Assembly (NCBI RefSeq): GCF_000003195.3
Contig: NC_012871.2
Coordinates: 14,268,293 to 14,332,292, forward strand
Direction: 5' to 3'
Length of the DNA stretch: 64,000 nt
DNA from: Sorghum bicolor
Taxonomy: Eukaryota > Streptophyta > Magnoliopsida > Poales > Poaceae
The notes under the pieces were generated by a model. It was not told the DNA's origin. It worked only from the letters and a program-made list of their open reading frames with translations, and searched no databases. This document shows positions 19,211 through 56,406 of this stretch, in pieces; positions within the stretch are counted from its first letter, which is position 1, and every line of letters starts with the position of its first letter. Made by a program: the position numbers and the translations under genes.

Positions 19211-20974
19211 TGTTGGCAGTCATTATAGACCAATCATAAACTGCCAACTTGATCCAAAAGGAGAAGAAGCAATCATATATATACACACATGCATTTTATT
19301 ACTAACAAGTTCCACTTGTACCATAGTGATTATATTTTGTAGGAATTATAGTGCAACAAGTGGAAATGTGCCATACCACGAAGAAAGCGCAAAGTACCAA
19401 AAGACGTATTCAGAAATGCGCAAACCAAGAAAATAGAGAAAGGACCAAACAACGCAGAACTGGGCCTGATCGTAACCACGGGAGAGATCCTGGCCCAGAG
19501 CCAAACCGACCACGCGAAGGCGGTGGCCAGGGGGACCCACCCAGGGTGCGGGCGCACACTGGTGCGGGCGCACCCCTAGAGGCATCAAACCGGGCCCATC
19601 TTTCTCAGGTGGTTGCATGCCGCCATGCATAGGACGGTTTCACCTACTACCAAATTTAGATGCGACGAACCGTCCTAGTTCCACTATAAAAATAGAGGCA
19701 CTCCCTCCTTTTCAACACACACATCATTTTGGAGTCAATTTACCTCACACCTCTCACTTGTATCTTTAGTCTAGATTAGTAGTAGAGCAAGGCAAGAGCT
19801 AGCAAGGAGAGCTTGTCTCCTTGGAAGAAAGGATCTTCTTGGTATGAATAATATTCAATCTTCTTTCGTGAGCAAGTTCTGTTTATCTTTATATGATTAT
19901 GCATATGAACTAGAGTATGGTTGTGTTCTTATCATGTTCATAGTACATGAACTAGTTCTTAGTTCTTGTGCTATGTTCTTGATATGTTCATCATTGTTCT
20001 TCATTGTTCATCAGATTAGTATGATTAGGATTAGAATTAGGAATGGGATGATGGTTCATTGTGCTGTGATGGTTGCTCTTTGCCTAGCCTGTCACTCCGA
20101 AGGGGTGGGCCCAATGGGGGTTAGCAGTTGTTTCCAAATACGTGAACATGGTGTTGAGGTATGCAGGAATCAGTGGATGTGCGGGTATCTTTCGGGTAGA
20201 GGGGTAGGTGGCAGGGTAGTGACAGCTCTATCATCCTTTGCATTCCCCCACGATCAGGTATTCCAATAGGAGTTCTGTAAAGTCTCTATCGGCTGGGTAT
20301 CCAACTACGGGGATCTCCCCTCATCTCAGGCTTAGTTCTAACTCCATTTATTGCTAATTAGATGATCTGCTAACAGTTCTATGCATAGTTATATGTGACT
20401 CATGCCTGCTCAAGTAGATTTATTTCTTTACTCTTATTTATTATTTCTCTTCTATTTTATCCTTGAGGTTGATCCAATGTGTGTCCACTATCTTGAATAT
20501 CATGTTTATTCCTGTTTACTCTATGTCTTCCAAGCATTCAATAAGTAATCATGTTTACACCATGTTTGATCCCTTTGCCTTCCTACGGGAATTATAAATT
20601 CGACACCCTTGAATACTGACGGGTTGAAATGCTACAATGATAGTTCTGTCTGCTTGCAGTTATATTACTTCTTCATTCATGAACTATCGATTGGAGTACC
20701 TAAGTACCGTTACTTAAGATTGTAATCCTTGTGCACTTTCAAGCGTAGTGCCATAGCTTTGCATATTGCAAGTAAGGATGGTTAGGAAGGCCAATCCGAC
20801 ATTCCTAATTATTGTTACCAGACTGCACTGCTAAGGTTGGCGCCCTCGAGTTGCCTTGGGTTATCTCTCTGATGTAGCGATAGTTACGGTATGCCAACAC
20901 CCGACATTTCTGGTGCCATTGCAAAGGATGGATCTATGGTCTATTTTTAGTAGTGACGCTAAGAAATGCCAACA
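19211..20974 (+). repeat. 3' LTR of the Athila-like element
   Basis: It begins TGTTGGCAGTC and ends ATGCCAACA, 1764 bp. The TATA box is near 19685-19692. The dyads at 19545-19558 (last base changed) and 19561-19574 keep the 16-bp spacing. Several percent divergence from the 5' LTR. Confidence 0.9.
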
Positions 20975-27893: not shown

Positions 27894-28083
27894 TGTTGAT
27901 ATTTGGTAATGCCATCAGAAAATGATCCGCAAGCGCACGGATATCAGTGAGCACTTCACCCAGGAGATTATCCAGAGTATCGTATTTATATTTTTACCAC
28001 TGAGAGAAAGTGTGCATCTGACTAACCAAATCTATTGCTACTACCCTTTAGGCTACAAACAATGTGATTCGATGTGAGCGATG
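27894..28083 (-). repeat. 3' LTR of the 27894-48425 element, left piece
   Basis: It begins TGTTGATATTTGG. It matches 47063-47250 closely up to the insertion point CGATG (28079-28083). Confidence 0.92.
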
Positions 28084-31000
28084 TGTAACACCCTAGGTGT
28101 TAAGCATGCACTTAGTCTCATCAAAGTCATGCATAAGCATTTCCATCAAGCATAAGCATCATGAGCATGACACTCTTTTCAAATTATGATTTTATGTGCT
28201 TCATTTCCTGTGCTTTAATTATGTTAAAAATGTGATGCTTGTTTCTAAAATTGTGAAATATTCAAATTAGGTTGCTTTATGTGTAAGAAGAATTAAGAAC
28301 ATTTTTGTGCAATTTTTGGAGCTATGGAATTTGAGAAATGGAATTTATACAAACTTTTCCAAAATGAATTTATTTAAAACCTAGAGCTGAGTTTTAACTT
28401 GTAATTCAAATTTTGTTTGGAATTTGGTCTTGCTTGTCAAAGCAAAGTTGTAGAGTTTTTAATTTGGAACAACTTTGTTTTTGGGAGCAAGAGGTGAAAA
28501 TGATTTTAAATTGGTCCAAATGAATTTAGAAAGAATTTGGAGAAAAGAAATTCAAAAAAAAAGAGAAAGGGGCAGGCGCTGCTGGGCCAACCCCGCTTCC
28601 CTTTCGGCCCAGCAAGCAACCCGGCCTGCCTCCCCTCTCCCTCTCCCTCCCGCGCGCGGACGCGCCTCGCTCCACCCGGCGCCGGCCACGTGGCGGCCGT
28701 ACGCCGGCGTTGGACGCGCCGCGGCCGGCCTCCAACCCCCCCTGGTCGGGACGCCGGCGCAGGCTCCCAGACCATTTCGCCCGTTCTGTCCCCCGCGCCC
28801 TCCTTCTCCTTCCTCCTCCGCTCGCACCGCGCAGCAGCAGCCGCTCCTCCGCGCGCCATTGCCGAAGAGAGCTCCGCCGCTCGTCGCCGGCCACACCAGA
28901 GCCTCAAGCTCGACGCCGAGAGCACCAGGGCACTCGCCGTCGCTAGGGTAAGCTCGTGCGAACGTTCTACCGAGGTGAGAGTCCGTCGAGCGCCGTGAAT
29001 CGCTCGCCGGAGTTACCCCGAGCTCGCCGGAGTACTCCGCCGCGACGGATCTAGCGTTTCCCTGCGTCTTTTCGCTCGTTCTCTGTTGCGCTAGGTCGGT
29101 AGGAAGGTGAGGAAGCTCGGAGAGGCGTTTGCGCACGCTCTACCGCGCCGGAGCAGCCTGGCCACGGCGAGCAGCGCCGCCATGCATGCTCGCCGGAGGT
29201 GTTCCGGCCGCCCTCTGGTCGATCCAAGGGTACCGTTGGGTGCGTCTTGCTGCGGGGAGCACGTTGGTGCTCACCCCGTGGCCGGAGACCTCACCGCCGG
29301 CGAGATCCGCTCGTCGGAGGTGAGCTCCCTCTCGGTCTCGCTGACTGGTGGGGTCAGGGACCCACTGTCAGTCGCAGGGGTACCCCGGTGGGTGTAGATC
29401 TGGGTGTGCGTAGCGTTTTTCGTCGGTTTTCTTGAAAAAGTATTTTTCAGAAATTGATTTAAAGTTTGTAAAATCTATATCTTGAGTTCTACAGCTCCAA
29501 ATTGAATGAAATAAATTTTGGTGTGCTCTATATTTCCAGATCTACAGTTTGATGTAATTGCATGTCATGTTGGAGCAACTTTTCTGTGTGAATATATTTT
29601 ATCCATGATTTTGTTAAACTTGGAAAATGCATAGTAAATGAAATATGGCTCAGAAAAATGTGAAACTTGATTTGTTGGCTTTGCATGTGTGTTTGCTCAC
29701 TGGGAAAAAGTGGGTACATATTATTTAGTGTATAAATGAATTTATGGTAATTTAAATGCTTGCATGGCAGTACTTTATGATTTTTAGTAATTAAATGGGT
29801 CTTGCAATAAATCTGGAAAAATTTGTGGGTGTTTCTTATGATATTATGCAAATTGTAAAAATATGAAATCTGTGGTTTAACACTTGTATCCCAGTAGAGT
29901 GATTTTACTTGCCTTATCAATTAATCTTGTGATTTTTGTGGCTCAAAATAAGTATCCAAAAATTATGAAAAATTTTCAGTAAACTTTATGCTTAGCTGGA
30001 AGTCTCGTGTAATTTTTGTGGAATTTATTGATGAACAGAATTGCATTTGATTTTTAATGGGCTTAGAAATGAATAAAGAAAACTATGAATGGTTGTATAT
30101 ATAGGTTGAATGGAGTAAGTTGGGTTTGGTGTATCTTTGAAGCATCATGGAGGTTGCTGGTTGCATTTGAAAAATAATTATAGAAGAGAATGTAATAGAT
30201 GTTTGATTCAATTGTTTATTCTTGGATGATGTTGACTACCTTGTAATAAGCATGACCCAGTGCATCACCTATGCATCATAACATGACTCCTTTGACACTC
30301 TCTCTTACAAGCATCCACTCGGGCATCTCACACTCCACTCATGAGCATATATGCATCATACAGGCTCGCAGGAGAACGAGGTGGGAACCGAGGAACCCGA
30401 GGAGCTTCAGGAGCAGGAACCTCCGGAAGCGCAGGAACCCGGAGAGGAACTGCAGGAGTGTCCGGATCACCGACCCAGCACGTTTGAGAAAGGCAAGCCC
30501 CGGAGCATTCTAAGTCTCCCTATTCTCGCTAACTTATATAAAGTGCTATACTTGTTCTACTGTATTGCATATTAAGTGATAGGAGTTGCCTGATACCGTT
30601 GCTGCATGAGTACTCCTTGTTATTCCTACTCATTCAACTACCTTGTCCTATGTAGATAGGCATGGAGTCTATGCTTAGCTTGCTTAGTTCGGTAGAAGTC
30701 GGGTGATTCCCTGTCACCTGCGAGATATAGGTGGATACCTGCTTGATTAAGCATTGGTTGCTCGGGGAAAAGAATAACCAAGTGTGGAATGAATTTGGAG
30801 ACCGGGCAGAGACTTATGGTGGGTTGACCATAGTGCCCCTGCCTGTGTCGATTAAGGACCAATCATTGACGGCCCTCTTGTCATGTTGAACGCATGCCCC
30901 ACATTTAGCTGGAAGGATAAGTCGTTCCGACCGCGAAGCCTGAGCACTATCCGGGCCGGGAATCGGCCCGATGTACGCGCTGTATTGGTGATGGTTGAGG

Positions 31001-31998
31001 AGAACGACGAGGGCGCGGCGTGCAACCTTGGTATACCTTGGATACCTCGGTCGCCGGAACGGTCCTCGGGTACGGGCGGTGCCTGTCGAACCCGCGAATT
31101 GGTCCCGGATAGTGCAACACGGTGACCTGTAGCTCACTTGATCAGTGAGTGTGGTTTGTGCGGGGAATAAACTCGCCAGCTGGTTAGAAATCGATTCGAA
31201 TCGCCATCGCTCCTGGATAGTGAGCACTTGACATGAGCCCTGTCCTCGTAGTAAGGACTATGGAACACTTGGGTTATAATGAAACGGGTTTATGACTGCT
31301 ATGATGAGGTACTATCATAGTCTCATACTTGCTTGTAATAGTGCAGGTGCAAACCTAGACGATAGGTAATGATACTTTCAATTTGAGCCAATTAAAAGAA
31401 GAAAGACTTATGTAGGTTATGTTAGCGAAATGCTGCGGTTTTGCAAAATGGTCGTTAGCTACCCCACTATATAGCCTTCATGATCCTTGATGAGTCTTTA
31501 TTTTAAGTTTATGACGGGTAAGTCTAGCTGAGTACCTTCTCGTACTCAGGGTTCTATTCCCATGTTGTTTTGCAGATGGTCAAATGTACTATGGTTATTG
31601 CATCCTCTGTCTGTACCCAGCTATGGGTGATGACTAGACCAAGGGCGATGGTCACTCCGTCTCTTCTTTTGCTTTTGTGCGAATGACCGAACTATGGCAC
31701 TGTATCAGACTTATCGTGTGTGTTGTAATTTCAAACTATGAAGCTTCCGCTACTTGAAGAACTTGGTTTGTAATAACTTTAAGCACTCCGATGTATTTTA
31801 TGAATGTTGAAATCTGGATGTACTTGTGGATGGCGACCGCTAAACTTATTACGATCTTGGCTGTTATGTGATGTGTGGTTTGAAATCCTTCGAGATTTCA
31901 CGGACTACCGGGATTATATGGGCTTAAGCGTGATAGTTCGACTATGCAAATGGTCACTATTAGGCTTAATCTCTTATAATTTGGTCGGTTCTGTTACA
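28084..31998 (+). repeat. 5' LTR of the chromovirus, 3915 bp
   Basis: It starts TGTAACACCCTAGG and ends GGTTCTGTTACA. The inside holds an AT-rich first 480 bp, a very GC- and CpG-rich core (about 28565-29400) flanked by TGGGCC/GGCCCA motifs of the plant proximal-promoter type, AT-rich DNA to 30350, a glutamate/proline-rich open frame (30351-30575), and a TATATAA box near 30536. Donor-like sites (GGGTAAGC at about 28945, GAGGTGAG at about 28974) follow the GC core. The many long open frames in the GC core are compositional and are not called as genes. Confidence 0.95.
30351..30575 (+). other. Glutamate/proline-rich open frame inside the LTR
   Basis: A 74-codon frame with repeated EPEE/QEPPE units is preceded by an acceptor-like CATACAG at 30356-30362. 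The copy in the 3' LTR (40936-41160) is identical in length and translation. I do not recognise the protein. It could be an exon joined to the GC-rich upstream part, a captured host fragment, or chance. Recent insertion alone explains the identity of the two copies, so conservation is not evidence of function. Confidence 0.3.
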
Positions 31999-32012: not shown

Positions 32013-32824
32013 AAGGTTTAGCGAGTTACTGTTCATAAGTACGTTTTAAACAAAAATCTAAACCGGTTTAGTAAAAGATTTAATTAATTAATTAATAATG
32101 ATCAAGGTGTTAAACTAAGTTTTGGGAAAATTATCTAGTGTGCCATGGTCATAGCCTTTATGCCCAGTTAAGGACTCTAAGGTGGCTAGCTAAGTACTGA
32201 CTTGGGGGTTAGTGCATCATATTTTTATTTCGTCGCTCATACGGCGTGCAATAGTATGAGTGCCATTCATTTGAGTGGTAATGTATGGATCAATTCTTCC
32301 TCTACGCCATGGTAAGTGGGAGTTGTGAGAGCATGATCGGATACACTGCCGGTCTAGGGAAGTGTTGTCAGGTGCTGTGTCATGCACACATGTTGGTGTG
32401 TCTTGGGAACAGTACCGCATGCTGGGAATTCCGTCCTGAGAGGCGATGCCGTCAAAAGGGCGATGATGTGGGTAGTGACACATCGCATGCATGGACGGGT
32501 GTCTGTGTGTGCGAAGTGCCTAGTTTTAAATTCCTATTCTGCACGATCATACTGTGGGTGGGCTGAAATGAGTTTTCTGCAGGTACCCTAACCACGTTCT
32601 CGCTTAGAACGCTAGTTACGTTATGAGCGAACGTTGTATGCCACCGCGTATACCGCTTAGTGTTAACTTTTGTTTTCTAAGTTTGTGAGATCGTAAGTTC
32701 GTACATGCATCATGTGCATTTCATATCATTGCTTACTTTCCCCCTTAATTTAATCTATCCCAATTTTAAATGAAATAAATAAAGGTAATCCTCGCTCTTA
32801 CCCACGGTATTCCATTTGCAGCAG
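32013..32824 (+). other. Untranslated leader with splice-like sites
   Basis: About 0.8 kb with no supported gene. Notable sites are TTTTCTGCAGGTACCC at 32572-32587, which reads as an acceptor directly followed by a donor, and a TCCATTTGCAG acceptor-like sequence ending four bases before the ATG at 32825. These suggest that the downstream ORF may be expressed from a spliced RNA. Confidence 0.5.
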
Positions 32825-33868
32825 ATGGCACGCACTAGGCTCACCGCTCGCAAGTCCACTGGTGGGCGGGCCCCTCGCCGTCCGTTGGCAGCTAGGAGCT
32901 CGCGACATAAGAGCAAGTTCCTAGAGGAGTTTGGGATGCCCATTTTGCTTTGGAGGGTGCTCAGTTCGATGGGGTATCCCGAAGGAAGGGAGCCTCACTA
33001 CTATTGGGATAAGGAGCCGCTTGGGGATGAGACCCTGGTGGGGATCGAGGCAGTTGTCCCTACCAGTGGAGGAGACCCTGCTTGGGGCGGTTGGGTGTAC
33101 GAGTCCCGAGGTGTCACGCCTTTCCACGGTGCCAGCAGGGCAGCTTTCGCAGTTTTGAGGGACCTCATGGAGAGGTTTCCACAGGAGCTGGCCCACGCCT
33201 TCGCTGGGGTGTTTCCCCGGGGTGACCCTTACACTTCGGTGTGGGATCAGTCCGAGGTGAATGCTCTAGAGAGGAGTGCGGATGAGGACCAGCACAGTGA
33301 CAGTGCAGCTATGAGTGCCATGTACGCGTTGATGAAGACCTATGGAGGCCTGGAGCGTTGTTTGGGTCGCTTGTCCGGGTCTCTTCTCACCGTCCAGGAT
33401 GAGAAGCGTCAGTTGCAGCGTGAGTTTGACTCTGAGGTTGAGAGGCTACAGGCAGAGTTGGCTCGTGTGACCAGAGAGAGAGACCAGGCAGTCCAGAAGA
33501 ACAGTGAGCTGAGTCAGGACCTGCTTGCAGTACGGGAGCAGAAGGACAGGGTGACTACTGCTCACAGGAACTGCGAGCGCATGCTAGTCCATGTGCTTGG
33601 ACAGAGGAATGAAGCCTGGCACGAGGAGGACACTTTGAGAGCCCGACAGCTGGAGCTAGAGCAGCAGCTAGCTAATGCCGAGGAGTACAATGAGAACTTG
33701 CATGAGGAGATCCACCAGCTGCATAACCAGCTCCATCCTCACCACCTGCCTGGAGCAGCGGAACTAGACTCTGAGGACGAGATGGACGCGGATCCCGAGA
33801 TAGGAGCAGCTGCTAGTGGAGATGAGGATGAGGATGGCTCCGGCATGGACAGTGACCATAGCGACTAG
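32825..33868 (+). CDS. Extra retrotransposon ORF with histone H3 tail mimic, coiled coil and acidic tail
   Basis: An intact 347-aa ORF upstream of gag. The frame is open nine bases further upstream, but 32825 is its first ATG. After Met the sequence begins ART like mature histone H3. By eye 16 of the first 21 residues match H3, including TARKSTGG unbroken around lysine 9, then APR and LA. H3 lysines 4, 14, 18 and 23 are arginine here. Residues 35-160 form an unrecognised, probably folded region with WDKEPLG and a GGWVYESRG motif. About 175-315 is a heptad-rich coiled coil with many E/R/Q/L residues. The C-terminal 35 residues are strongly acidic (DSEDEMDADPE, GDEDEDGSGMD), as in many histone-binding proteins. 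Extra ORFs (orf0) upstream of gag are known from related rice elements; I do not know whether they carry this tail. Role unknown; chromatin binding or histone imitation is inference. Confidence 0.9.
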   Translation: MARTRLTARKSTGGRAPRRPLAARSSRHKSKFLEEFGMPILLWRVLSSMGYPEGREPHYYWDKEPLGDETLVGIEAVVPTSGGDPAWGGWVYESRGVTPFHGASRAAFAVLRDLMERFPQELAHAFAGVFPRGDPYTSVWDQSEVNALERSADEDQHSDSAAMSAMYALMKTYGGLERCLGRLSGSLLTVQDEKRQLQREFDSEVERLQAELARVTRERDQAVQKNSELSQDLLAVREQKDRVTTAHRNCERMLVHVLGQRNEAWHEEDTLRARQLELEQQLANAEEYNENLHEEIHQLHNQLHPHHLPGAAELDSEDEMDADPEIGAAASGDEDEDGSGMDSDHSD

Positions 33869-34192
33869 ATGCTAGGGCTCTAGAGCTAGTCTTTCCTCTT
33901 TTGTGATGTATGTTGCGTGGCATGTCATGTACTTTTGGATCTGGGCTGTGTAAGACTTTATGAGTTGATGCTGAAAGTCCAGTGTATGTATGCTGGCAAG
34001 TTGGATGTACGCGAACCTTGTTGCGTGAATGTTAAGTAATCTGTTAGTGATGTTGTGCGTGGATGATGAGTTGTTGTGCCTTTGTTTATTGTGTGAATTT
34101 ATTCCCTCAGTAAATTCAGTATGGCACGATTTTACACATTTTCTACCGGTTGATGGCAACTCCTAATGATTGCTTATCATTGGCGTATACAG
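33869..34192 (+). other. Spacer between the extra ORF and gag-pol
   Basis: 324 bp of T/G-rich noncoding DNA. It ends in TTGGCGTATACAG directly before the ATG at 34193, an acceptor-like context similar to the one before the upstream ORF. An in-frame ATG at 34166 would add nine residues. Confidence 0.55.
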
Positions 34193-37100
34193 ATGGTACA
34201 AACACGTGGCGGGGGTAACAGCAATCCGGGCCTTGGAGCAGGTACCTCCGGAGGTGGGGCTCAACGGAATGAGAACCGAGCGCCAACACCACCACCGCCT
34301 CCCCCGTACACTGCGGATGTGTTTTTCGCGCAGTTTCTGGGAAGCCAACGGAACATGGAACAGATGCAGCGCAACATGGAAGAAGCTTTGCGCAACATAG
34401 CTGACAACACCCGTCGCGGGGATAATCAGGGTGGCCGGGAGGTCAACCAGTACAGTTCGTTCAAGGACTTCATGGATACCAAGCCACCAATCTTCAAAGA
34501 GGCTTTGGAACCCCTCGAGGCAGATGAATGGATCAATACCATGGAGCAGAAGTTTCGTCTTCTTCGGATGACAGAAGAACTCAAGGCTGAATATGCGGCA
34601 CATCAGTTGCAAGGACCTGCTGGGATTTGGTGGTCCCATCACCGTACCACCTACCCAGAAGGGACACCAATCACCTGGAACCGCTTCACCACCGCTTTCC
34701 GGGGAAATTACATTCCTCCTGGTGTGGTTGAAATGAAGGTTGGGGAGTTCATGAGGCTGTCCCAAGGGACGAAGTCTGTGAAGGAGTATCTACACGCTTT
34801 CAACAATCTCGCTCGCTATGCCCCTGAGTTTGTGAACACGGAGGCTAAGAAGATTGCTAGTTTCCAGAGAGGTTTGAATCCAAAGATGCTGAAGACCATG
34901 GGTACAGGGGCCAGGGCTACTTTCAATGCCTATATCAGTGACTGTCTGACCCAAGAGAACAATAACAACAACTACAGTGCATCCAAGTCACGTAAAAGGG
35001 CTTTTGAAGCAGGATCATCCCAGTCCAGGGCACCAGTGGCAGGGCGACAGCAGTATCGTCCTCCTGCCCCGGGTGCTAGGTTCCGACCACCGCAGAGAAG
35101 GAACACCGGGCATCCAACACAGCAGAAGCCGTACAAGGTGGCGATAGCTCCTGCCAAGCCAAAGGCAATTCAAGCTGCAGCACCTGCCGTCAACAGTGCG
35201 CCCAAGGGTCCATGCTATAACTGCCACAAGATGGGGCACTTTGCTAAGGAATGTCCCAACCCCAAGAGGCAGCAGCCAACCTATCCAGCTCGTGTGCACC
35301 ATACCTCGATCGAGGAGATTCCGGAAGGAGAACCGGTAACAGCTGGTATGTTTCCTGTCAACCAACATCTTGCAGTTGTTTTGTTTGATTCTGGATCATC
35401 GCATTCATTCATGAGCCAAGCATTTGCACGAAAGCATGATCAGCCAGTTACTGAGTTAGGTTATGGCTATCGCATCAGCTCAGCCAGAGCCGATGTGTTG
35501 ACTAATAAAACGGTAACAGGAGTTACCTTGGATATCAGTGGTCGGAGGTTCCGTGTAAATCTTGTGGTCATGCCAGGGCTGGTTTTGGATGTCATCATTG
35601 GGATGAACAAAATGACTGATTGGGGTGCGGTTATAGATACCGGGAATAGAACTCTATCCCTTAGAGACCCGCAAGGGAAGGGGGTGCTTCAGGTCAAGCT
35701 ACCTAGACGATTGGACTTCGCCAGTCTTTCATGTGTAGTACAGGTAGTCTCTCTAGAACACATACCCGTGGTATGTGAGTTCCCTAATGTGTTTCCTGAG
35801 GATTTACCAGGACTTCCCCCAGATAGGGAGGTAGAGTTTGCGATCGAGTTGATACCAGGTACAGCACCAATATCTAGAAGGCCGTATCGGATGCCCCCAA
35901 ATGAACTCGCTGAGTTGAAGAATCAACTAAAAGAGTTGCTGGATAAAGGGTTCATCCGGCCAAGTTCGTCGGAATGGGGTTGTCCAGCGTTGTTTGTGAA
36001 AAAGAAGGATCAGTCGTTGCGCATGTGCGTGGACTATCGTCCACTCAATGCAGTGACAATCAAAAATAAGTATCCCTTGCCAAGGATTGATATCCTGTTT
36101 GATCAGTTATCCAAGGCAAGAGTGTTTTCTAAGATAGATTTGAGATCTGGGTATCACCAAATCAAGATTCGTCCGCAAGATATCACGAAGACTGCTTTTT
36201 CCACCAGATATGGGTTGTATGAGTATCTAGTCATGTCCTTTGGGTTGACAAATGCTCCTGCATACTTTATGTATCTAATGAATTCAGTCTTTATGCCGGA
36301 ATTGGATAAGTTTGTTGTGGTGTTTATCGATGATATCCTGGTGTATTCAGAAAATGAGCAAGATCACGCCGAACATCTGAGAATCGTGCTGACACGATTA
36401 CGAGAGCATCAGTTATATGCCAAGTTCAGCAAGTGTGAGTTCTGGTTGAAGAAAGTTCCATTCCTAGGGCACATTTTGTCTGAAGAAGGGATTGCCGTAG
36501 ATCCATCAAAAGTGCAGGAAGTCATGGACTGGAAGGCACCAACTTCTGTCTCGGAAGTTAGAAGTTTTCTTGGTCTGGCCGGGTATTATCGTCGTTTCAT
36601 ACCTGACTTCTCCAAGATTGCTAAGCCAATGACAAGTTTGCTACAAAAGGATCATAAGTTCGTCTGGACGGAAGGGTGTGAGTTAGCCTTCCGCACCTTG
36701 CGAAAGTTGCTAACCACTGCTCCCGTTCTGGCACAACCTGATATAGAGAAGCCTTTTGATGTGTTTTGTGACGCATCGAAGAGTGGCCTGGGGTGTGTGT
36801 TGATGCAAGATGGCAGGGTGATAGCTTATGCTTCCCGACAGTTGAGAAAGCATGAAGTCAACTATCCAACGCACGACCTTGAGTTAGCAGCAGTGGTACA
36901 TGCTTTGAAGATCTGGAGACATTATCTGCTAGGAAATAAGTGTCACATTTACACCGATCACAAGAGTTTGAAGTACATCTTCACTCAGTCCGAGCTGAAT
37001 ATGAGGCAACGACGGTGGTTAGAGCTAATCAAGGATTATGACCTGGAAGTTCACTATCATCCAGGCAAAGCTAATGTGGTCGCAGATGCTTTGAGTCGCA

Positions 37101-38659
37101 AACCGCACTATCAAATGGTTCAACCGTTGTTTGAAGATGGGTTCAATCTTATGCATCCTGAGGTCTTATGTCATATACAACTCAGTTGTTCACTCGAGAG
37201 TCAAGTCATTGAAGGTCAGAAAACAGACAAGGGTATTTTCCACATCAAAGAGAAGATTAAAGATGACCCAAAGACTCAGTTTCGGGTTGATGAGAAGGGG
37301 GTACTGTGGTTTCAACAGCGGTTAGTGGTCCCGAAAGATCGGGAGTTGAAGAATCGCATCATGGATGAAGCCCATCTCTCTAAGCTTTCTATTCATCCTG
37401 GCAGCAGCAAAATGTATCAAGATCTAAGGCCCCACTTTTGGTGGACCAAGATGAAGAAAGAAATAGCCGCTTATGTGGCCCGTTGTGACACGTGTTGCAG
37501 AGTTAAGGCCATCCATATGAAACCTGCAGGTCTGTTACAACCGTTATCAGTTCCGGAGTGGAAATGGGAAGAGGTCAGTATGGACTTTATCACAGGTTTA
37601 CCAACCACAAGGAAGGGGAATGACTCGATTTGGGTAATCATAGATCGATTGACCAAATCGGCCCATTTCATCCCTGTGAAGACTCGTTACAGACCTCCTG
37701 AGTATGCCGATATATATATGGCTGAGATTGTCAAGTTGCATGGTATTCCCAAAACCATCATATCGGATAGAGGACCGCAGTTCACTGCTCACTTCTGGGA
37801 GCGCATGCATAAAAGTTTGGGGACCAGTTTGATAAGAAGCACGGCGTATCATCCCCAGACTTCAGGCCAAACTGAGAGGCTAAATCAAGTGTTGGAAGAT
37901 ATGCTGAGGGCCTGTGTGCTATCATCCAGGGGATCGTGGGAATCATGGTTACCTTTGGCTGAGTTCTCATACAATAATAGTTATCAATAGAGCATCAAGA
38001 TGGCCCCGTTCGAAGCTTTGTATGGGCGGAGATGTCGAACTCCGTTAAACTGGGTGGAACCTGGTGAAAGGAGATACTATGGTATCGACTTTGTGAATGA
38101 TGCCGAGAAAAAGGTGCAGATTATACAGCAACATATGCAAGCAGCGCAATCACGACAGAAGAGTTATGCTGATAAGAGAAGAAGGCCACTTGAATTCAAC
38201 ATAGGTGACTATGTGTACCTCAAGGTTACGCCAATGAAGAAAGTTCAACGTTTCCGAGTTCGAAGCAAGCTTGCACCCAGATATGTGGGACCGTACCAAG
38301 TGCTAGAGAGGAAAGGCCCAGTGGCCTATAAGATTCAGTTACCTGAAGAGATGAGCTCGATCTTTCCGGTCTTCCATGTGTCGCAACTACGGAAATGTTT
38401 GAAAGTGCCTGAGCAAAGAATTGAACCTCGAGGGATCAAAATAAAAGCAGACTTAGAGTATAAAGAGCAGCCAGTGGGAATTGTGGATACCAAGGAGCGA
38501 GTAACCCGAAACAAAGTTGTCAGAACGTACAAAGTGGTGTGGAGTCATCATGACGATAGGGATGCCACTTGGGAAACAGAGGATTACTTAAAAGCAGTTT
38601 ATCCAAAATTTCATAAGAAATGGTTAGTAACCCAAAATCTCGAGACGAGATTTCCCTAA
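34193..38659 (+). pseudogene. gag-pol polyprotein of a Del/Tekay chromovirus, one in-frame stop
   Basis: One frame of 1488 codons broken only by TAG at 37988 (codon 1266). Numbering from 34193: gag core about 90-260; zinc knuckle [14 protein letters not shown] about 341-354; aspartic protease with DSGSS at D399; reverse transcriptase with FIDD at 711-714; RNase H with first catalytic Asp at 860; integrase with zinc-binding His at 1061 and catalytic D1131, D1192 and E1228 (DX60DX35E). After the stop come the integrase C-terminal GPY-type module and a chromodomain-like segment (YKVVWSHH and ATWE, about 1445-1470). The usual first aromatic cage residue is not evident, as in the Tekay-type subgroup. 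Intact enzymes up to the stop but loss of the targeting end suggest a copy that is defective or dependent on others. The alternative start at 34166 is less likely because ATG 34193 follows an acceptor-like CAG. Confidence 0.95.
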
Positions 38660-38671: not shown

Positions 38672-41600
38672 TGTAACACCCTAGGTGTTAAGCATGCACT
38701 TAGTCTCATCAAAGTCATGCATAAGCATTTCCATCAAGCATAAGCATCATGAGCATGACACTCTTTTCAAATTATGATTTTATGTGCTTCATTTCCTGTG
38801 CTTTAATTATGTTAAAAATGTGATGCTTGTTTCTAAAATTGTGAAATATTCAAATTAGGTTGCTTTATGTGTAAGAAGAATTAAGAACATTTTTGTGCAA
38901 TTTTTGGAGCTATGGAATTTGAGAAATGGAATTTATACAAACTTTTCCAAAATGAATTTATTTAAAACCTAGAGCTGAGTTTTAACTTGTAATTCAAATT
39001 TTGTTTGGAATTTGGTCTTGCTTGTCAAAGCAAAGTTGTAGAGTTTTTAATTTGGAACAACTTTGTTTTTGGGAGCAAGAGGTGAAAATGATTTTAAATT
39101 GGTCCAAATGAATTTAGAAAGAATTTGGAGAAAAGAAATTCAAAAAAAAGAGAAAGGGGCAGGCGCTGCTGGGCCAACCCCGCTTCCCTTTCGGCCCAGC
39201 AAGCGACCCGGCCTGCCTCCCCTCTCCCTCTCCCTCCCGCGCGCGGACGCGCCTCGCTCCACCCGGCGCCGGCCACGTGGCGGCCGTACGCCGGCGTTGG
39301 ACGCGCCGCGGCCGGCCTCCAACCCCCCTGTCGGGACGCCGGCGCAGGCTCCCAGACCATTTCGCCCGTTCTGTCCCCCGCGCCCTCCTTCTCCTTCCTC
39401 CTCCGCTCGCACCGCGCAGCAGCAGCCGCTCCTCCGCGCGCCATTGCCGAAGAGAGCTCCGCCGCTCGTCGCCGGCCACACCAGAGCCTCAAGCTCGACG
39501 CCGAGAGCACCAGGGCACTCGCCGTCGCTAGGGTAAACTCGTGCGAACGTTCTACCGAGGTGAGAGTCCGTCGAGCGCCGTGAATCGCTCGCCGGAGTTA
39601 CCCCGAGCTCGCCGGAGTACTCCGCCGCGACGGATCTAGCGTTTCCCTGCGTCTTTTCGCTCGTTCTCTGTTGCGCTAGGTCGGTAGGAAGGTGAGGAAG
39701 CTCGGAGAGGCGTTTGCGCACGCTCTACCGCGCCGGAGCAGCCTGGCCACGGCGAGCAGCGCCGCCATGCATGCTCGCCGGAGGTGTTCCGGCCGCCCTC
39801 TGGTCGATCCAAGGGTACCGTTGGGTGCGTCTTGCTGCGGGGAGCACGTTGGTGCTCACCCCGTGGCCGGAGACCTCACCTCCGGCGAGATCCGCTCGTC
39901 GGAGGTGAGCTCCCTCTCGGTCTCGCTGACTGGTGGGGTCGGGGACCCACTGTCAGTCGCAGGGGTACCCCGGTGGGTGTAGATCTGGGTGTGCGTAGCG
40001 TTTTTCGTCGGTTTTCTTGAAAAAGTATTTTCCAGAAATTGATTTAAAGTTTGTAAAATCTATATCTTGAGTTCTACAGCTCCAAATTGAATGAAATAAA
40101 TTTTGGTGTGCTCTATATTTCCAGATCTACAGTTTGATGTAATTGCATGTCATGTTGGAGCAACTTTTCTGTGTGAATATATTTTATCCATGATTTTGTT
40201 AAACTTGGAAAATGCATAGTAAATGAAATATGGCTCAGAAAAATGTGAAACTTGATTTGTTGGCTTTGCATGTGTGTTTGCTCACTGGGAAAAAGTGGGT
40301 ACATATTATTTAGTGTATAAATGAATTTATGGTAATTTAAATGCTTGCATGGTAGTACTTTATGATTTTTAGTAATTAAATGGGTCATGCAATAAATCTG
40401 GAAAATTTTGTGAGTGTTTCTTATGATATTATGCAAATTGTAAAAATATGAAATCTGTGGTTTAACACTTGTATCCCAGTAGAGTGATTTTACTTGCCTT
40501 ATCAATTAATCTTGTGATTTTTGTGGCTCAAAATAAGTATCCAAAAATTATGAAAAATTTTCAGTAAACTTTATGCTTAGCTGGAAGTCTCGTGTAATTT
40601 TTGTGGAATTTATTGATGAACAGAATTGCATTTGATTTTTAATGGGCTTAGAAATGAATAAAGAAAACTATGAATGGTTGTATATATAGGTTGAATGGAG
40701 TAAGTTGGGTTTGGTGTATCTTTGAAGCATCATGGAGGTTGCTGGTTGCATTTGAAAAATAATTATAGAAGAGAATGTAATAGATGTTTGATTCAATTGT
40801 TTATTCTTGGATGATGTTGACTACCTTGTAATAAGCATGACCCAGTGCATCACCTATGCATCATAACATGACTCCTTTGACACTCTCTCTTACAAGCATC
40901 CACTCGGGCATCTCACACTCCACTCATGAGCATATATGCATCATACAGGCTCGCAGGAGAACGAGGTGGGAACCGAGGAACCCGAGGAGCTTCAGGAGCA
41001 GGAACCTCCGGAAGCGCAGGAACCCGGAGAGGAACTGCAGGAGTGTCCGGATCACCGACCCAGCACGTTTGAGAAAGGCAAGCCCCGGAGCATTCTAAGT
41101 CTCCCTATTCTCGCTAACTTATATAAAGTGCTATACTTGTTCTACTGTATTGCATATTAAGTGATAGGAGTTGCCTGATACCGTTGCTGCATGAGTACTC
41201 CTTGTTATTCCTACTCATTCAACTACCTTGTCCTATGTAGATAGGCACGGAGTCTATGCTTAGCTTGCTTAGTTCGGTAGAAGTCGGGTGATTCCCTGTC
41301 ACCTGCGAGATATAGGTGGATACCTGCTTGATTAAGCATTGGTTGCTCGGGGAAAAGAATAACCAAGTGTGGAATGAATTTGGAGACCGGGCAGAGACTT
41401 ATGGTGGGTTGACCATAGTGCCCCTGCCTGTGTCGATTAAGGACCGATCGTTGACGGCCCTCTTGTCATGTTGAACGCATGCCCCACATTTAGCTGGAAG
41501 GATAAGTCGTTCCGACCGCGAAGCCTGAGCACTATCCGGGCCGGGAATCGGCCCGATGTACGCGCTGTATTGGTGATGGTTGAGGAGAACGACGAGGGCG

Positions 41601-42583
41601 CGGCGCGCAACCTTGGTATACCTTGGATACCTCGGTCGCCGGAACGGTCCTCGGGTACGGGCGGTGCCTGTCGAACCCGCGAATTGGTCCCGGATAGTGC
41701 AACACGGTGACCTGTAGCTCACTTGATCAGTGAGTGTGGTTTGTGTGGGGAATAAACTCGCCAGCTGGTTAGAAATCGATTCGAATCGCCATCGCTCCTG
41801 GATAGTGAGCACTTGACATGAGCCCTGTCCTCGTAGTAAGGACTATGGAACACTTGGGTTATAATGAAACGGGTTTATGACTGCTATGATGAGGTACTAT
41901 CATAGTCTCATACTTGCTTGTAATAGTGCAGGTGCAAACCTAGACGATAGGTAATGATACTTTCAATTTGAGCCAATTAAAAGAAGAAAGACTTATGTAG
42001 GTTATGTTAGCGAAATGCTGCGGTTTTGCAAAATGGTCGTTAGCTACCCCACTATATAGCCTTCATAATCCTTGATGAGTCTTTATTTTAAGTTTATGAC
42101 GGGTAAGTCTAGCTGAGTACCTTCTCGTACTCAGGGTTCTATTCCCATGTTGTTTTGCAGATGGTCAAATGTACTATGGTTATTGCATCCTCTGTCTGTA
42201 CCCAGCTATGGGTGATGACTAGACCAAGGGCGATGGTCACTCCGTCTCTTCTTTTGCTTTTGTGGGAATGACCGAACTATGGCACTGTATCAGACTTATC
42301 GTGTGTGTTGTAATTTCAAACTATGAAGCTTCCGCTACTTGAAGAACTTGGTTTGTAATAACTTTAAGCACTCCGATGTATTTTATGAATGTTGAAATCT
42401 GGATGTACTTGTGGATGGCGACCGCTAAACTTATTACGATCTTGGCTGTTATGTGATGTGTGGTTTGAAATCCTTCGAGATTTCACGGACTACCGGGATT
42501 ATATGGGCTTAAGCGTGATAGTTCGACTATGCAAATGGTCACTATTAGGCTTAATCTCTTATAATTTGGTCGGTTCTGTTACA
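38672..42583 (+). repeat. 3' LTR of the chromovirus, 3912 bp
   Basis: Nearly identical to the 5' LTR. The three-base length difference is explained by one A in a poly-A run, one C in a poly-C run and one G. One substitution (39537 region, GGGTAAAC against GGGTAAGC) changes the +5 base of a donor-like site in the GC-rich core. Confidence 0.96.
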
Positions 42584-42588
42584 CGATG

Positions 42589-43748
42589 TATAGAGAAGAC
42601 TACAACCGCACTCTCGTTCTAACCTTGGTAAGGATGATCTACTATTCTATTGGGGAGGCTTACGGAATCTAGACACCACAGAGGATGTTCGACCCGCACC
42701 TATAAACCCTATCGATCCTTCTAACGGAATGTGGGCTACAAAGGTAACTCGGAAATATCACGTTCCTCGCTACTACCACGGTCCAGCTAGATAGGGGATA
42801 TCTATGAGTACCCTAGCCCAAACACCACGTTTACGCTAGCAATGATTACTCTAAACTCAACCGGAAGACATTAAAGTAAACTCATAAACCAAAGAACAAT
42901 AAGAACAAGAACTTACTAGAATTTAGAAGTCGAAATACTGAAGAATCCTAGGAGCAAGCCTCGGGTTAGGAGACTTGATCCCGTAGGTACAACCTCGGAG
43001 TAGACACCGACAGGCCGGGCTTCCTCCGATCTACACCTCCACTCTATCTCTCTCAATCTAGAAGAACTTAGAAGAACTAATTCTAATCTCACATTGGATG
43101 CTAAGCCCTAATTCTATATAGAGGAAAGGTTATCCTTCGAGGGCACCTCTCAACTCTATAATGATTTGTTCTCCTCCAGGGGCCAGGGGCCTTGCTTATA
43201 TAGCCTCCTCCTTTTGTGCCTTTTTGGTTGAGCAGGCGATGTGGTACTAAACTTTCCGCCATATCTCATTAAAATGCACATAGGCCTTAATGGACCAAAA
43301 TCTGATTTGGGCCCAATTAATCTCGTAGCTCTTTTATGTGGAGTTCTTCTTTTATTAATATCTCTTGATTCCGAACTCCAAATATAACAAACAATATATG
43401 CATTTCGATCAGCTCGACGAGATCTTTGTAATGGTGTACTCCATTCTGTAATTGGTGCTTGCACCAGGGCAGGCGCCCTGCCCCCGTGCCCGTTCGGCCT
43501 CCCGTTCGTTCCCGTGGCTTCTGGACTCTTCTAGATGATAGAAAATTGCGCAGCACGTTAATATATCTATGTAAAACCGACGTGTGGGCCTTTCCTCCGT
43601 ATTTCCTAATAACCCCCCGCAGAAATAGACAAACACCAAAACTCGTGGAATTCTGTCAGATAAAACCCTAAGTCTGGGTGTTGGTTGCATTTGGATCCTT
43701 TTCTTTATTCATTTGATGATTATATTTGGTACTTAAGGACCGTCAACA
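42589..43748 (-). repeat. 3' LTR of the 27894-48425 element, right piece
   Basis: It continues the LTR from 28083 and ends CCGTCAACA at 43748. A minus TATA box (CTATATAAGC) lies at 43194-43203. Its GC-rich block near 43465 has one GGGCGCC-type module where the partner LTR has two. Confidence 0.92.
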
Positions 43749-47062: not shown

Positions 47063-48425
47063 TGTTGATATTTGGTAACGCCATCAGGAAATGATCCGCA
47101 AGCGCACGGATATCGGTGAGCACTTCGCCCGGGAGATTATCCAGAGTATCGTATTTATATTTTTACCACTGAGAGAAAGCGTCCATCTGACTAACCAAAT
47201 CTATTGCTACTACCCTTTAGGCTACAAACAATGTGATTCGATGTGAGTGATGTATAGAGAAGACTACAACCGTACTCTCGTTCTAACCTTGGTAAGGATG
47301 ATCTACTATTCTATTGGGGAGGCTCACGGAATCTAGACACCACAGAGGATGTTCGACCCGCACCTATAAACCCTATCGATCCTTCTAATGGGATGTGGGC
47401 TACAAAGGTAACTCGGAAATGTCACGTTCCTCGCTACTACCACGGTCCAGCTAGACAGGGGATATCTATGAGTACCCTAGCCCAAACACCACGTTTACGC
47501 TAGCAATGATTACTCTAAACTCAACCGAAAGAGATTAAAGTAAACTCATAAACCAAAGAACAATAAGAACAAGAACTTACTAGAATTTAGAAGTCGAAAT
47601 ACTGAAGAATCCTAGGAGCAAGCCTCGGGTTAGGAGACTTGATCCCGTAGGTACAACCTCGGAGTAGACACCGACAGGCCGGGCTTCCTCCGATCTACAC
47701 CTCCACTCTATCTCTCTCAATCTAGAAGAACTTAGAAGAACTAATTCTAATCTCACATTGGATGCTAAGCCCTAATTCTATATAGAGGAAAGGTTATCCT
47801 TCAAGGGCACCTCTCAACTCTATAATGATGTGTTCTCCTCCAGGGGCCAGGGGCCTTGCTTATATAGCCTCCTCCTTTTGTGCCTTTTTGGTTCAGCAGG
47901 CGTGTGGTACTAAAATTTCCACCATATCTCATTAAAATGCACATAGGCCTTAATGGACCAAAATCTGATTTGGGCCCAATTGCAGCTCTTTTATGTGGAG
48001 TCCTTCTTTTATTAATATCTCTTGATTCCGAACTCCAAATATAGCAAATAATATATGCATTTCGATCAGCTCGACGAGATCTTTGTAATGGTGTACTCCA
48101 TTCTTTGAGTGCTGCTTGCACCAGGGTGGGCGCCCAAGGGGGGAGGGCGGGCGCCCTGCCCCGGGCCCGTTCGGCCTCCCGTTCCTTCCCGTGGCTTCTG
48201 GACTCTTCTAGATGATAGAAAATTGCGCGGCACGTTAATATCTCTATGTAAACCCAACGTGTGGGCCTTTCCTCCATATTTCCTGATAACCCCCTGCAGA
48301 AATAGACAAACACCAAAACTCGTGGAATTCTGTCAGATAAAACCCTAAGTTTGGGTGTTGGTTGCATTTGGATCCTTTTCTTTATTCATTTGATGATTAT
48401 ATTTGGTACTTAAGGACCGTCAACA
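47063..48425 (-). repeat. 5' LTR of the 27894-48425 element
   Basis: 1363 bp, TGTTGATATTTGG to CCGTCAACA on the plus strand. The minus TATA box is near 47860-47867. Two GGGCGCC-type modules occur at about 48126-48160. Confidence 0.94.
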
Positions 48426-51552: not shown

Positions 51553-54279
51553 AACAGAGCAAGACCAGGAGCTCTCACCAACAGATGAACCCGAACCCTC
51601 CTCTTCCAAGTAAGTTCGTCGTCACTTACTTTGATGAAGATATGAGGTACGTTTGTCCAAGCCTCATGCAACATGTAACTACAATTAACATCTCATACCA
51701 TATTGCTAATTTGTCTTGGTCATTTCTACCCTACGCTATGCTCAAACATAACTTGCTAATATATATATAATAAAATGCTCCTGTGGTTCACCATAGATAT
51801 TCTTGGTTCTATGTGAATAAATACCTTTAGTCTTGCAAACTTCCTTATTCTATTATAAGTATACTTTAGAATATTACTTAAACATTTTGAAAATCAAGCA
51901 TGCTTATATAAGAATTTAGTTGTACATATATACTAACCCCTCCTACTTAAAAAATGTTTAAATTATATTAGGAGACTATTCATAGAATCAATTCATGGTT
52001 AAGAGTATGCTTCAAAATAATATTCTTATTTTAACCTTGATAAAAAAATTAAAATAGTATGGAATCATTGAAAACATGAGCTACAAATCAATCTTTAACT
52101 CTTAGGCAAACACTATCCATACTTTGATAAATAGTATATTCCTTCGGGTATGTGTTGTCCACTAACCCCTTGCAGAAAAGACAATAAGAGAAGCAGAAGG
52201 TCTGAAGAGTGAGAAAGGAGTACAACATACGAGACAAGATGCTAACGAATAACCCATGATACAAGAAAAAAAGAGAGACCATTGAAATCCATTTACCCTT
52301 CATCATGCTCTAATGGAGGTAACATCTTAAGATAAGTGGTCATTAATTTCCTCTTGATCTTGGTATGCAATAAATGAAAATACAACCATGTTAGAGTTAC
52401 AACTTAGATTGCTCAATCTGATTAAACTCAACATGATTTATTCTCTAAGTTTGTTCATAGCGGTATTCTTGTAATCTCAGTCTTAACCGAGTAAGCTAGA
52501 AGTACTTCGCCTATTATTCTTGATATATTATAAATATGCATAGCCTTTCTAATGGTTAAGTAACTTTACTCTTTATCTCACAAGTTTAAATATCATATTT
52601 ATACTTCTAGTCCTCTCACCCATGATAGAAATGAAAAATATGAATAATATCAATCTTATTGTGCCCAAGGTTAGAGGATAAATAAATTTCAAGTTCCGTT
52701 GGTGTTTTCCCACCAATAGAGCCCATGCACTTGATCTCTACCTTGTCTTCATGAAGGTTTTCAACAAGTTATAATGATGCACATAAGATTGGCTTTGAGA
52801 CGCCTACAACAGAAAGAAATAAGGTGGCACCGCTATTGGGAGCCACTAGTAGAGGCACCATCTCAATCCTTACCATCAAGAGCAACTCAAAGTACTCAAT
52901 GAACCACTGCAAGGAGAAGTCCAGTTTGAAGGACTAAAAACATTGGACCTTCACCGTAAGGTAACATGAGTAGTTATCTATATCTACTTCCTTACATTGT
53001 ATGAGTTAATTTCTCTTTAGTATGTTTACTTTTCTATATTGGCAATGCATAGAAATAACAAAAATAAATAGTCTTGCATTAGGCTACATTCATGCATCTT
53101 AAGAAAATATATATATTAAGCTCCATGTGAAACCCTTGTAGTGTAAAAGTTGTAGGAGTTCTCACTGTGGTGGCCTATAGAATAAAAATATATATCATAC
53201 ATTTGCACTTACGGTTTTCTTAAAAAATACTTTGAATCCAAAATATATATATATTAACTGAGCATCCTGCTACAATACTGTTTTCTTAAAAAATACTTTG
53301 AAACCACCACAACACCCAATCCTCCAAAAACGATAATCATTAACATTTTATCCTAATACCGTTCCACGAGTTTTTGTGTTTTGTGAGAGCTTTCTGCAGG
53401 ATGACTCCAAGAGCCAGCTTACCTAGGAAGCTTCATCTTCATCACTTGAGGTACACCTTTCTAACATACAGCTGACCCCTGTATGAATGAAGTAACTTCT
53501 TGGGTGATGAGATTGAAGTATTCCAGGCAACACTTGCTCTTATAAGCATGAGCTCCTCCATGAGGCCACTCAGCTTCAACGATCAACCATAAGCAAACAT
53601 CTAGCTTGGGGAGAACATCCACTAGCTATCAGCACGGTTAGAAGCGTGGGAGAAAGAGAATAAAGTTGAAGAGCTAGAGCCAGAAAAGAAAGAAGCAAAA
53701 GAGACATAAATGAGATGGAAAAAGGCACGTGTGGCATCACCATGAAACAGGGAGATGACTTAGGTTACCTCACACGATGAACCCACTGAGTAAGTGTTCT
53801 CTTCTATCTAAGTCCTGTCGGTAGACTTTAAATTCCATATCCTAGCCATAAGGTTAGAGTGGTAGTTATCTCTTTAACTGCATTTGTAATTTATTTAGTA
53901 GTATAGTTTTGTTTACACACTAAAAGATATAAAAACAACAAAAATATTTACTGTACTCATGGTATCACAAGCCCCATGTGGACACCCTATGGTATTTTCG
54001 GAAGGAACATCCGCTGTGGTGGTATACAATAAAAATGATAAAAAAAATATAGCATTCATATTTAAATTCCTGCATCATAAACAGAAAATTAAAAAATAAG
54101 AGAAAATTGAAATCCTATTTAAATTAGACAACAATAAAGCTAGCTCATAAAGGTGATCAATTACTCTTTGGTTGACCGCTAACCTATTAACAAATTCGAG
54201 CCTCGAGTTTTGGTTTCTCTTTGTGGAGAGTATTTATGCAGGAATAACATCAAAGCAAGGAGAGAGTCTATCAGTGGCA
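51553..54279 (+). other. Decayed internal DNA of a plus-strand Athila-like element
   Basis: No intact gene. The stretch 52690-52760 contains the hairpin and CCCATGCACTTGATCTC block of these elements. Short polypurine-like blocks (CTAGCTTGGGGAG near 53610, CAGCTTGAGGGAGG near 54346) fit the repeated gene-spacer pattern. The downstream LTR at 56421 is probably this element's 3' LTR. The 5' LTR was not found. Confidence 0.5.
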
Positions 54280-55081
54280 CCCACTAGATCCGCTACTGGT
54301 TAGTTCACTCTAAAGGACATCTACACCAAGTATTGCAACCATCCAGCTTGAGGGAGGAGCATCCCCTAGTTATTAGATAATTATACCTAAGTGATTTTGA
54401 GTCTATATAGTCTTAAAAATACCAAAAATATGTGGGCACATGAAGGTCCACAAGTAATAGAGTTTTTTTGTGAGTTTATAATTAGTTAAGTGTTAGAGTC
54501 CATTTAGAGTCAGTCTAAACTAGAGCTAAACAAAAAATTGATGAACATTACAATTTTGTCTTGGAGATGATGAATAGTTGCTCTGTTATAATTCTTTACA
54601 AGTACCTAGATTCCAACGTTAGATTCTCTCGAGTTTTGGACACGACTGTTTTAATTTGAAGGTTTACTCTGAACCTGCAACCCACTAGATCCGCTACTGG
54701 TTAGTTCACTCTAAAGGGCATCTACACCAAGTATTGCAACCATCCAGCTTGAGGGAGGAGCATCCCCTAGTTATCAGATAATTATACCTAAGTGATTTTG
54801 AGTCTATATAGTCATAAAAATACCAAAAATATGTGGGCACATGAAGGTCCACAAGTCATAGAGTCTTTTTGTGAGTTTATAATTAGTTAAGTGTTAGAGT
54901 CTATTTAGAGTCAGTCTAAACTAGAGCTAAACAAAAAATTGATGAACATTAAAATTTTGTCTTGGAGATGATGAATAGTTGCTCTGTTATAATTCTTTAC
55001 AAGTACCTAGATTCCAACGTTAGATTCTCTCGAGTTTTGGACACGACTGTTTTAATTTGAAGGTTTACTCTGAACCTGCAA
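54280..55081 (+). repeat. Tandem duplication, 2 x 401 bp
   Basis: 54280-54680 and 54681-55081 are direct tandem copies that differ by about seven substitutions and no indel by eye (about 1.7 percent). The unit contains a polypurine-like CAGCTTGAGGGAGG and the GATGATGAATAGTTGCTCT block. The duplication occurred after insertion of the element, or in its recent parent. Confidence 0.93.

Positions 55082-56406
<1,325 letters not shown>

Follow-up and report, generated by a model that had tools for sequence, protein, structure and literature searches.

An open reading frame of a sorghum retrotransposon encodes a non-histone protein whose first residues match the N-terminal tail of histone H3. The frame, hereafter ORF0, resides in a window of 64,000 nucleotides of Sorghum bicolor DNA; the translation from position 32825 starts MARTRLTARKSTGGRAPRRPLAARSSRHKSKF and is open to the stop ending at 33868. 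Residues 2-22 are identical to H3 residues 1-21 at 16 of 21 positions, ungapped and with the start in exact register, and 17 identities are counted over H3 residues 1-30 (17/30). Permuted 400,000 times, these 21 residues gave 11 matches at most and never reached 16. Searched against PDB by phmmer, ORF0 residues 1-72 found 131 sequences at E values up to 10; the best 60 of the 131 are all H3-type by name (one is Cse4), with E between 2.2e-5 and 2e-4, and the three alignments displayed among the PDB matches listed begin at ORF0 residue 1 or 2. Upstream of the ATG at 32825 the frame is closed by a TAA (32786-32788), and the 36 bases between the two hold no other in-frame ATG, so that this ATG comes first in the frame. 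A preliminary description, made from the sequence, had claimed that the frame opens like the H3 tail after Met and that the match starts at the first ATG, and was right on both counts. At H3 lysines 4, 9, 14, 18, 23 and 27 the window copy retains K9 only, the changes being K4R, K14R, K18R, K23R and K27H. That ORF0 is an actual histone H3 was considered and rejected, as the tail is followed by a predicted fold of the dsRNA-binding-domain (dsRBD) type and a long helix, and no histone fold; histone families are absent among the 10 Pfam families matched at E up to 1.

ORF0 is carried by a young Ty3/gypsy chromovirus-like retrotransposon, 14.5 kb in length, with 3.9-kb LTRs and the target-site duplication CGATG (Table 1). 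Over 3,915 aligned columns the LTR pair differs by 17 substitutions and 3 gap columns, and the small number of substitutions marks the insertion as young. An in-frame stop at 37988-37990 ends the gag-pol frame of the window copy inside the integrase. In the related element L059 the integrase frame is uninterrupted where the window copy has the stop (37988-38000), and the order, ORF0 and then gag-pol after the 5' LTR, is the same. The chromodomain match (PF00385; E 7.5e-4, 19.8 bits) lies below the Pfam cut-off of 25.1. Two repeat pairs, about 95% identical, flank the element (42585-43748 and 47249-48425; 27894-28087 and 47063-47256), which seems to be nested inside another repeat. Elsewhere in the window, two direct repeats of some 1.8 kb (12070-13798 and 19213-20974; 93.7% identical) possibly represent the LTRs of another element, and two adjacent 403-bp copies (54279-54681 and 54680-55082; 98.3% identical) form a tandem duplication.

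Table 1. Features of the ORF0-bearing element, in window coordinates
Feature	Position	Strand	Basis
5' target-site duplication CGATG	28079..28083	.	read beside LTR ends
5' LTR, 3,915 bp, start TGTAACACCC, end TGTTACA	28084..31998	+	99.5% identity with 3' LTR
In-frame TAA, then pyrimidine-rich stretch to TTTGCAGCAG; splice-acceptor-like, adjoins ATG	32786..32824	+	putative splice use
H3-like N-terminal tail, residues 1-22, MARTRLTARKSTGGRAPRRPLA	32825..32890	+	translation, PDB search, permutation; kept in relatives
ORF0, 347 residues: H3-like tail, dsRBD-type fold, long helix, acidic C-terminus	32825..33868	+	ORF translation, predicted structure
Predicted alpha-beta-beta-beta-alpha domain, residues 38-117, dsRNA-binding-domain type	32936..33175	+	predicted structure
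Predicted long helix, residues 159-303, probably coiled coil	33299..33733	+	predicted structure; profile matches to coiled-coil proteins
Acidic low-confidence C-terminal stretch, residues 304-347, plus stop	33734..33868	+	translation, predicted structure
gag-pol (gag, zinc knuckle, protease, RT, RNase H, integrase); putative start 34193	34193..37990	+	Pfam matches of 34166-37987
Integrase C-terminal part: SH3-like domain PF24626 (E 3.7e-26), weak chromodomain PF00385	38000..38659	+	Pfam
3' LTR, 3,912 bp	38672..42583	+	LTR pair comparison
3' target-site duplication CGATG	42584..42588	.	read beside LTR ends

In the predicted model of ORF0, mean pLDDT is 90-98 in blocks from residue 181 to 300; confidence is low at residues 1-37, as expected of a disordered tail, and the N-terminus is probably disordered. 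The alpha-beta-beta-beta-alpha fold of the dsRBD type is seen in the predicted structure only. With the full model, Foldseek gave a best E of 0.013, the first 5 rows being dsRBD proteins, with other folds mixed in thereafter; with the model of the domain the best E was 0.0035, and the first 10 rows are dsRBD proteins, followed by a mixture. No match of either model reached E 0.001. When the set A3 was used as a profile against PDB, 27 sequences came back, all at E 0.1 or above; most are coiled-coil proteins and none is a dsRBD, so that the dsRBD reading rests on the predicted structure. Among the best 25 of 38 Pfam families matched by 15 members of A3 there is no dsRBD family, and the domain of the window copy alone matched no family. 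The RNA-binding motif of dsRBDs is of the KKxAK type; it is absent in the window copy, which has TPFHGASRAAF instead. The predicted dsRBD-type fold, the long helix and the acidic end had been missed in the preliminary description, as had the assignment of the frame to a known kind of ORF (ORF0 / 5'aORF; see below).

The window family is large. Scoring of 3,355 candidates gave at least 117 copies, none with an E above 1e-227; they are spread over many contigs, and some contain stops. The tail is nearly invariant in 38 loci of this family found by whole-protein search, K9, S10, T11, G12, G13 and R14 being present in 38/38. These loci are the best-scoring copies, and decayed copies are therefore under-represented. 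The genome was also scanned for H3-like starts with the pattern M-A-R-T-K-x-T-A-R-K-S/T, which is found at 20 places, and at none when reversed. Twelve places correspond to H3 genes or H3-like sequences (GGK), and eight to ORF0: two members of the window family with K4 (L021, L023), five members of a second family (L011, L015, L020, L022, L028), and L016, a broken copy from a third. Since the pattern demands K4 and K9, the loci fetched with it (L009-L028) are no test of K9 retention. One of them, L009, has at 1501-1560 an H3-like start (MARTKCTARKSTGGKAPRKQLVRN) which loses the match to H3 after residue 20, and is perhaps an H3 pseudogene or a divergent exon.

Second-family proteins share the start MARTKQTARKSTGGRAPRG(Q/P)LA; the form beginning MARTKQTARKSTGGRAPRGQLA is identical to H3 at 19/21 positions, the count in L011, L015, L020 and L028, and L022 has 18/21. 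When a second-family ORF0 was used as whole-protein query, the same five loci came out on top (92-100% identity), followed by copies at 42-45%; the pattern had thus not selected tail-bearing members from a mostly tail-less family. All 116 matches listed in this search begin at query residue 1. The query P0012 found only copies at 51-53% identity, which belong to the window family where checked. Taking all 46 ORF0 loci together, K9 and R14 are each found in 46/46, whereas residue 4 is R in 38/46 and K in 8/46. In the L011 element, as in the window, ORF0 lies upstream of gag-pol. Chance resemblance or an assembly artefact was discarded as having negligible probability, given the 400,000 permutations, the at least 117 copies on many contigs, and the recurrence of the same start in the second family.

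Relatives in public databases were examined in 147 proteins, which include the best 120 of 211 listed in one search. The tail, taken as at least 9 of 22 residues, is present in 37 and missing in 110. K9 and K4 are each found in 36/37 tails, R14 in 37/37, K14 in none (0/37). Most of these tails come from one short-form family, and the 37 are therefore not independent cases. The short form (P0026 and kin, about 194 residues; an example starts MARTKLTARKSAGGRAPRHRLAP) keeps the tail without the middle domain; one MAFFT alignment placed the short-form tails against the coiled coil, and was not used for them. Many of the 110 proteins with no tail start at an internal Met, as P0001, P0005 and P0009 do (MPTLLW). 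As the tail is present in the genomic DNA matching P0001 (window family; L001-L008) and P0023 (L011 family; L011), the tail-less P0001 and P0023 are read as truncated gene calls. The presence of the tail at the ORF start in relatives, on which the preliminary description had made its reading depend, is thus documented in a second, strongly diverged family, in the broken copy of a third, and in a fraction of the public proteins. With residues 1-56 of ORF0 as query, 17 candidates led to 3 proteins, and no further tail came to light. Neither viral_contigs, scanned with A2 (18 pattern stretches) and P0026 (56 pattern stretches), nor genome_contigs, scanned with A2 (18 pattern stretches), yielded a relative. 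A 246-residue protein of Miscanthus floridulus (P0042) has an integrase-type SH3 domain joined to an ORF0 C-terminus, and is probably an annotation across pieces of an element.

In three H3 genes found in the scan (L010, L019, L025) an ATG opens a coding stretch that reaches K23, and the GT coming next is taken to mark the end of the first coding exon; the ATG of L010 has TTAATTAATGCAG in front of it. The resemblance of ORF0 to H3 trails off at residues 21-23, and this exon stops there in the three genes. An AG stands directly before the ATG in 46/46 ORF0 loci, compared to 4/12 H3 loci. The end of the match at the exon end and the AG before the ORF0 ATG both suggest the capture of an H3 exon along with its acceptor; the most likely source is an H3 gene of the host with introns (H3.3-type), whose first coding exon would have supplied the tail. 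Shared codons are about as frequent between ORF0 tails and H3 genes as among the ORF0 tails themselves, and codon comparison was uninformative on exon capture and on the donor H3 gene. The 826 bases from the 5' LTR to the ORF0 ATG hold 22 ATGs, and an unspliced mRNA would therefore probably translate ORF0 poorly. The number of upstream ATGs and the conserved AG argue for a spliced ORF0 mRNA. Four donor-like places, all within the 5' LTR, were found with a crude splice-donor pattern, which identified no donor. The likely gag ATG (34193) is also directly preceded by AG (TATACAG), and the starts of ORF0 and gag may be alternative splice acceptors.

Selection on the tail was monitored by comparing the window family to L011, with uncorrected Nei-Gojobori counts. 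The two families are 42% identical in ORF0 (tblastn) and 65-76% in gag-pol, and synonymous sites between them are near saturation. In the tail 17/21 residues agree, the same codon being used at 7 of these 17; pS is 0.60, pN 0.13, and pN/pS 0.21. At such a level of synonymous change the low ratio indicates purifying selection on the tail as protein sequence, and the H3 match is kept by selection, as measured on 21 codons only. The ten codons which follow keep 2/10 residues, with pN/pS 1.36 (0.97 when L028 replaces L011); the ratio is 0.48 in the dsRBD part, 0.71 in the helix, and 0.59 in residues 23-347 together. The tail is conserved, but not uniquely so within ORF0, since two other stretches of 21 residues (one starting at column 116, the other at columns 31-33) keep 16-17/21 between the same families. 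Equal conservation elsewhere in the protein, and the acceptor-like AG adjoining the ATG in every ORF0 locus, would also fit a tail that is a passive remnant of the captured exon, useful only for the start codon and the good splice acceptor it brings, and conserved because the whole ORF0 is. Such a remnant appears highly improbable, in view of both the sharp drop from the tail to the next ten codons and the short form, in which the tail persists without the middle domain.

The H3 tail carries import signals, and the tail of ORF0 might have been borrowed from H3 as a nuclear-import or basic nucleic-acid-binding signal, with no imitation of a ligand of chromatin factors. In favour of such a signal, Arg replaces four of the five lysines changed in the window copy, and nuclear localisation is predicted for grass Tekay 5'aORF proteins in PMC11728184. 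However, the H3 positions shared with the second family include T3, T6, S10, T11, G12, G13, P16, L20 and A21 among others, and a basic signal would not need these residues, which are common to both families at near-saturated synonymous divergence. Nor would it need the exact start at residue 1, or keep K9 while the other tail lysines are lost in the window copy (four to Arg, one to His). An import or basic signal is, on the whole, unlikely.

Plants methylate H3 K9 when silencing retrotransposons, and their LTR retrotransposons are main targets of this methylation. ORF0 is proposed to be an accessory protein with a selected mimic of the H3 tail, acting on host H3K9 writers or readers; this is the favoured reading, with roughly even chances of being right. 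What suggests a ligand of H3K9 writers or readers is the set of residues kept (A1-R2-T3, T6-A7-R8-K9-S10, G12-G13), combined with the loss of K14, K18, K23 and K27. The imitation of H3 put forward in the preliminary description is partly supported: the tail is real, sits at the first in-frame ATG and is not due to chance; production of the protein, and its binding or modification by chromatin factors, are putative. Beyond exon capture and spliced expression, Met removal is expected for Met-Ala, and ORF0 would then present ART(K/R)xTARKS(T/A)GGRAP at a free N-terminus, where K9 has its normal H3 neighbours and other residues stand in for K14, K18, K23 and K27. Binding or methylation by H3K9 writers and readers of the host would be the most likely role of the tail, candidates being SUVH methyltransferases and, among readers, CMT2/CMT3, SHH1 and HP1-like proteins. 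The coiled coil could display several tails together, making them multivalent, and silencing factors would be either drawn away from the element or called in by it at a step of its choosing. In plants, H3K9me guides CMT2/CMT3 and, with unmethylated K4, SHH1-Pol IV, as described in PMC7617993. Residue 4 of ORF0 varies, R prevailing in genomic loci (38/46) and K in public proteins (36/37), and therefore no single K4 reader fits all.

A more elaborate function, judged very unlikely, would make ORF0 a two-headed antagonist of RNA-directed DNA methylation, in which a decoy for readers of H3K4me0/K9me (SHH1) is joined to a dsRBD engaging the dicing machinery and to a multivalent coiled coil. The Arg replacing K4 in the dominant family could not be lysine-methylated, K9 would be available, and SHH1-like readers bringing Pol IV to elements would be drawn off; a dsRBD fold of the DRB/DCL type would engage the dicing machinery. 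The tail might otherwise serve the element as a life-cycle tether, its K9-methylated form being read by the integrase chromodomain or by heterochromatin readers and steering the integration complex towards H3K9me chromatin or away from it. The integrase of the same element has a weak chromodomain match, and the partner of type II chromodomains is called unknown in PMC6317226. According to the same source, type II chromodomains are without an aromatic cage, and among plant chromoviruses the cage motif is limited to non-seed plants. Reading of K9me would not be expected from a cage-less domain; the score of the chromodomain is moreover sub-threshold (19.8 vs 25.1 bits), and ORF0 is a separate ORF, not joined to the integrase. 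The tether is accordingly given a small probability.

By description, the window ORF is of a known kind, the ORF0 / 5'aORF of grass Tekay/Retrosat2-type elements. Grass Tekay (Del) chromoviruses such as Retrosat2, RIRE3, RIRE8, FRetro3, Sorsat2 and Sb7 have, as here, an extra ORF upstream of gag-pol, and the LTRs of rice ORF0 elements measure about 3 kb or more, to be compared with 3,915 and 3,912 bp in the window. The 10-bp LTR ends of Retrosat2/RIRE8 (TGTCACACCC/GGGCGTGACA), a trait of those two families and not of the lineage, are not found in the window, where the LTRs run from TGTAACACCC to TGTTACA. For maize Tekay and S. bicolor Sb7, a predicted long C-terminal helix and a weak structural resemblance to a DRBM protein (TM 0.35-0.37) are described in a 2024 paper (PMC11728184); functions proposed earlier for ORF0 were hydrolase for most elements and acyltransferase for Sorsat2 (PMC3485330). 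The word 'histone' occurs 0 times in the main text of PMC3485330 or PMC11728184. The likeness of the ORF0 domain to plant dsRNA-binding proteins (DRB7.2, DRB4, DCL4, HYL1) comes from the predicted fold, with no dsRBD match among the Pfam families listed.

Non-histone proteins with an H3-tail motif, held to act on chromatin factors, are known in viruses, as influenza NS1 (ARSK) and SARS-CoV-2 ORF8 (ARKS), described in PMC10208167; the HDV antigen is likewise presented as a viral histone mimic in PMC6972770, and the ORF8 case is disputed in PMC10833455. The NS1 and ORF8 motifs are four residues long, whereas ORF0 matches about 21 in register from residue 1, and its carrier is a plant LTR retrotransposon. 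In the literature searched, the coverage of which excludes most subscription papers, nothing was found that describes such a tail in a retrotransposon. ORF0 itself and its weak dsRBD resemblance are already in print; its H3 tail extends histone mimicry to a new kind of carrier, at an unusual length.

The H3 tail gives the long-unexplained ORF0 a concrete, testable function. Being selected, keeping K9 and residing in many copies, it permits a direct test of whether protein mimics serve transposons to fight histone-guided silencing or to exploit it. With a copy of the H3 tail, the element may be able to disturb its own silencing or turn it to advantage; if ORF0 were in addition an antagonist of both SHH1-like readers and the dicing machinery, a retrotransposon would be answering histone-guided silencing with a stolen histone tail.
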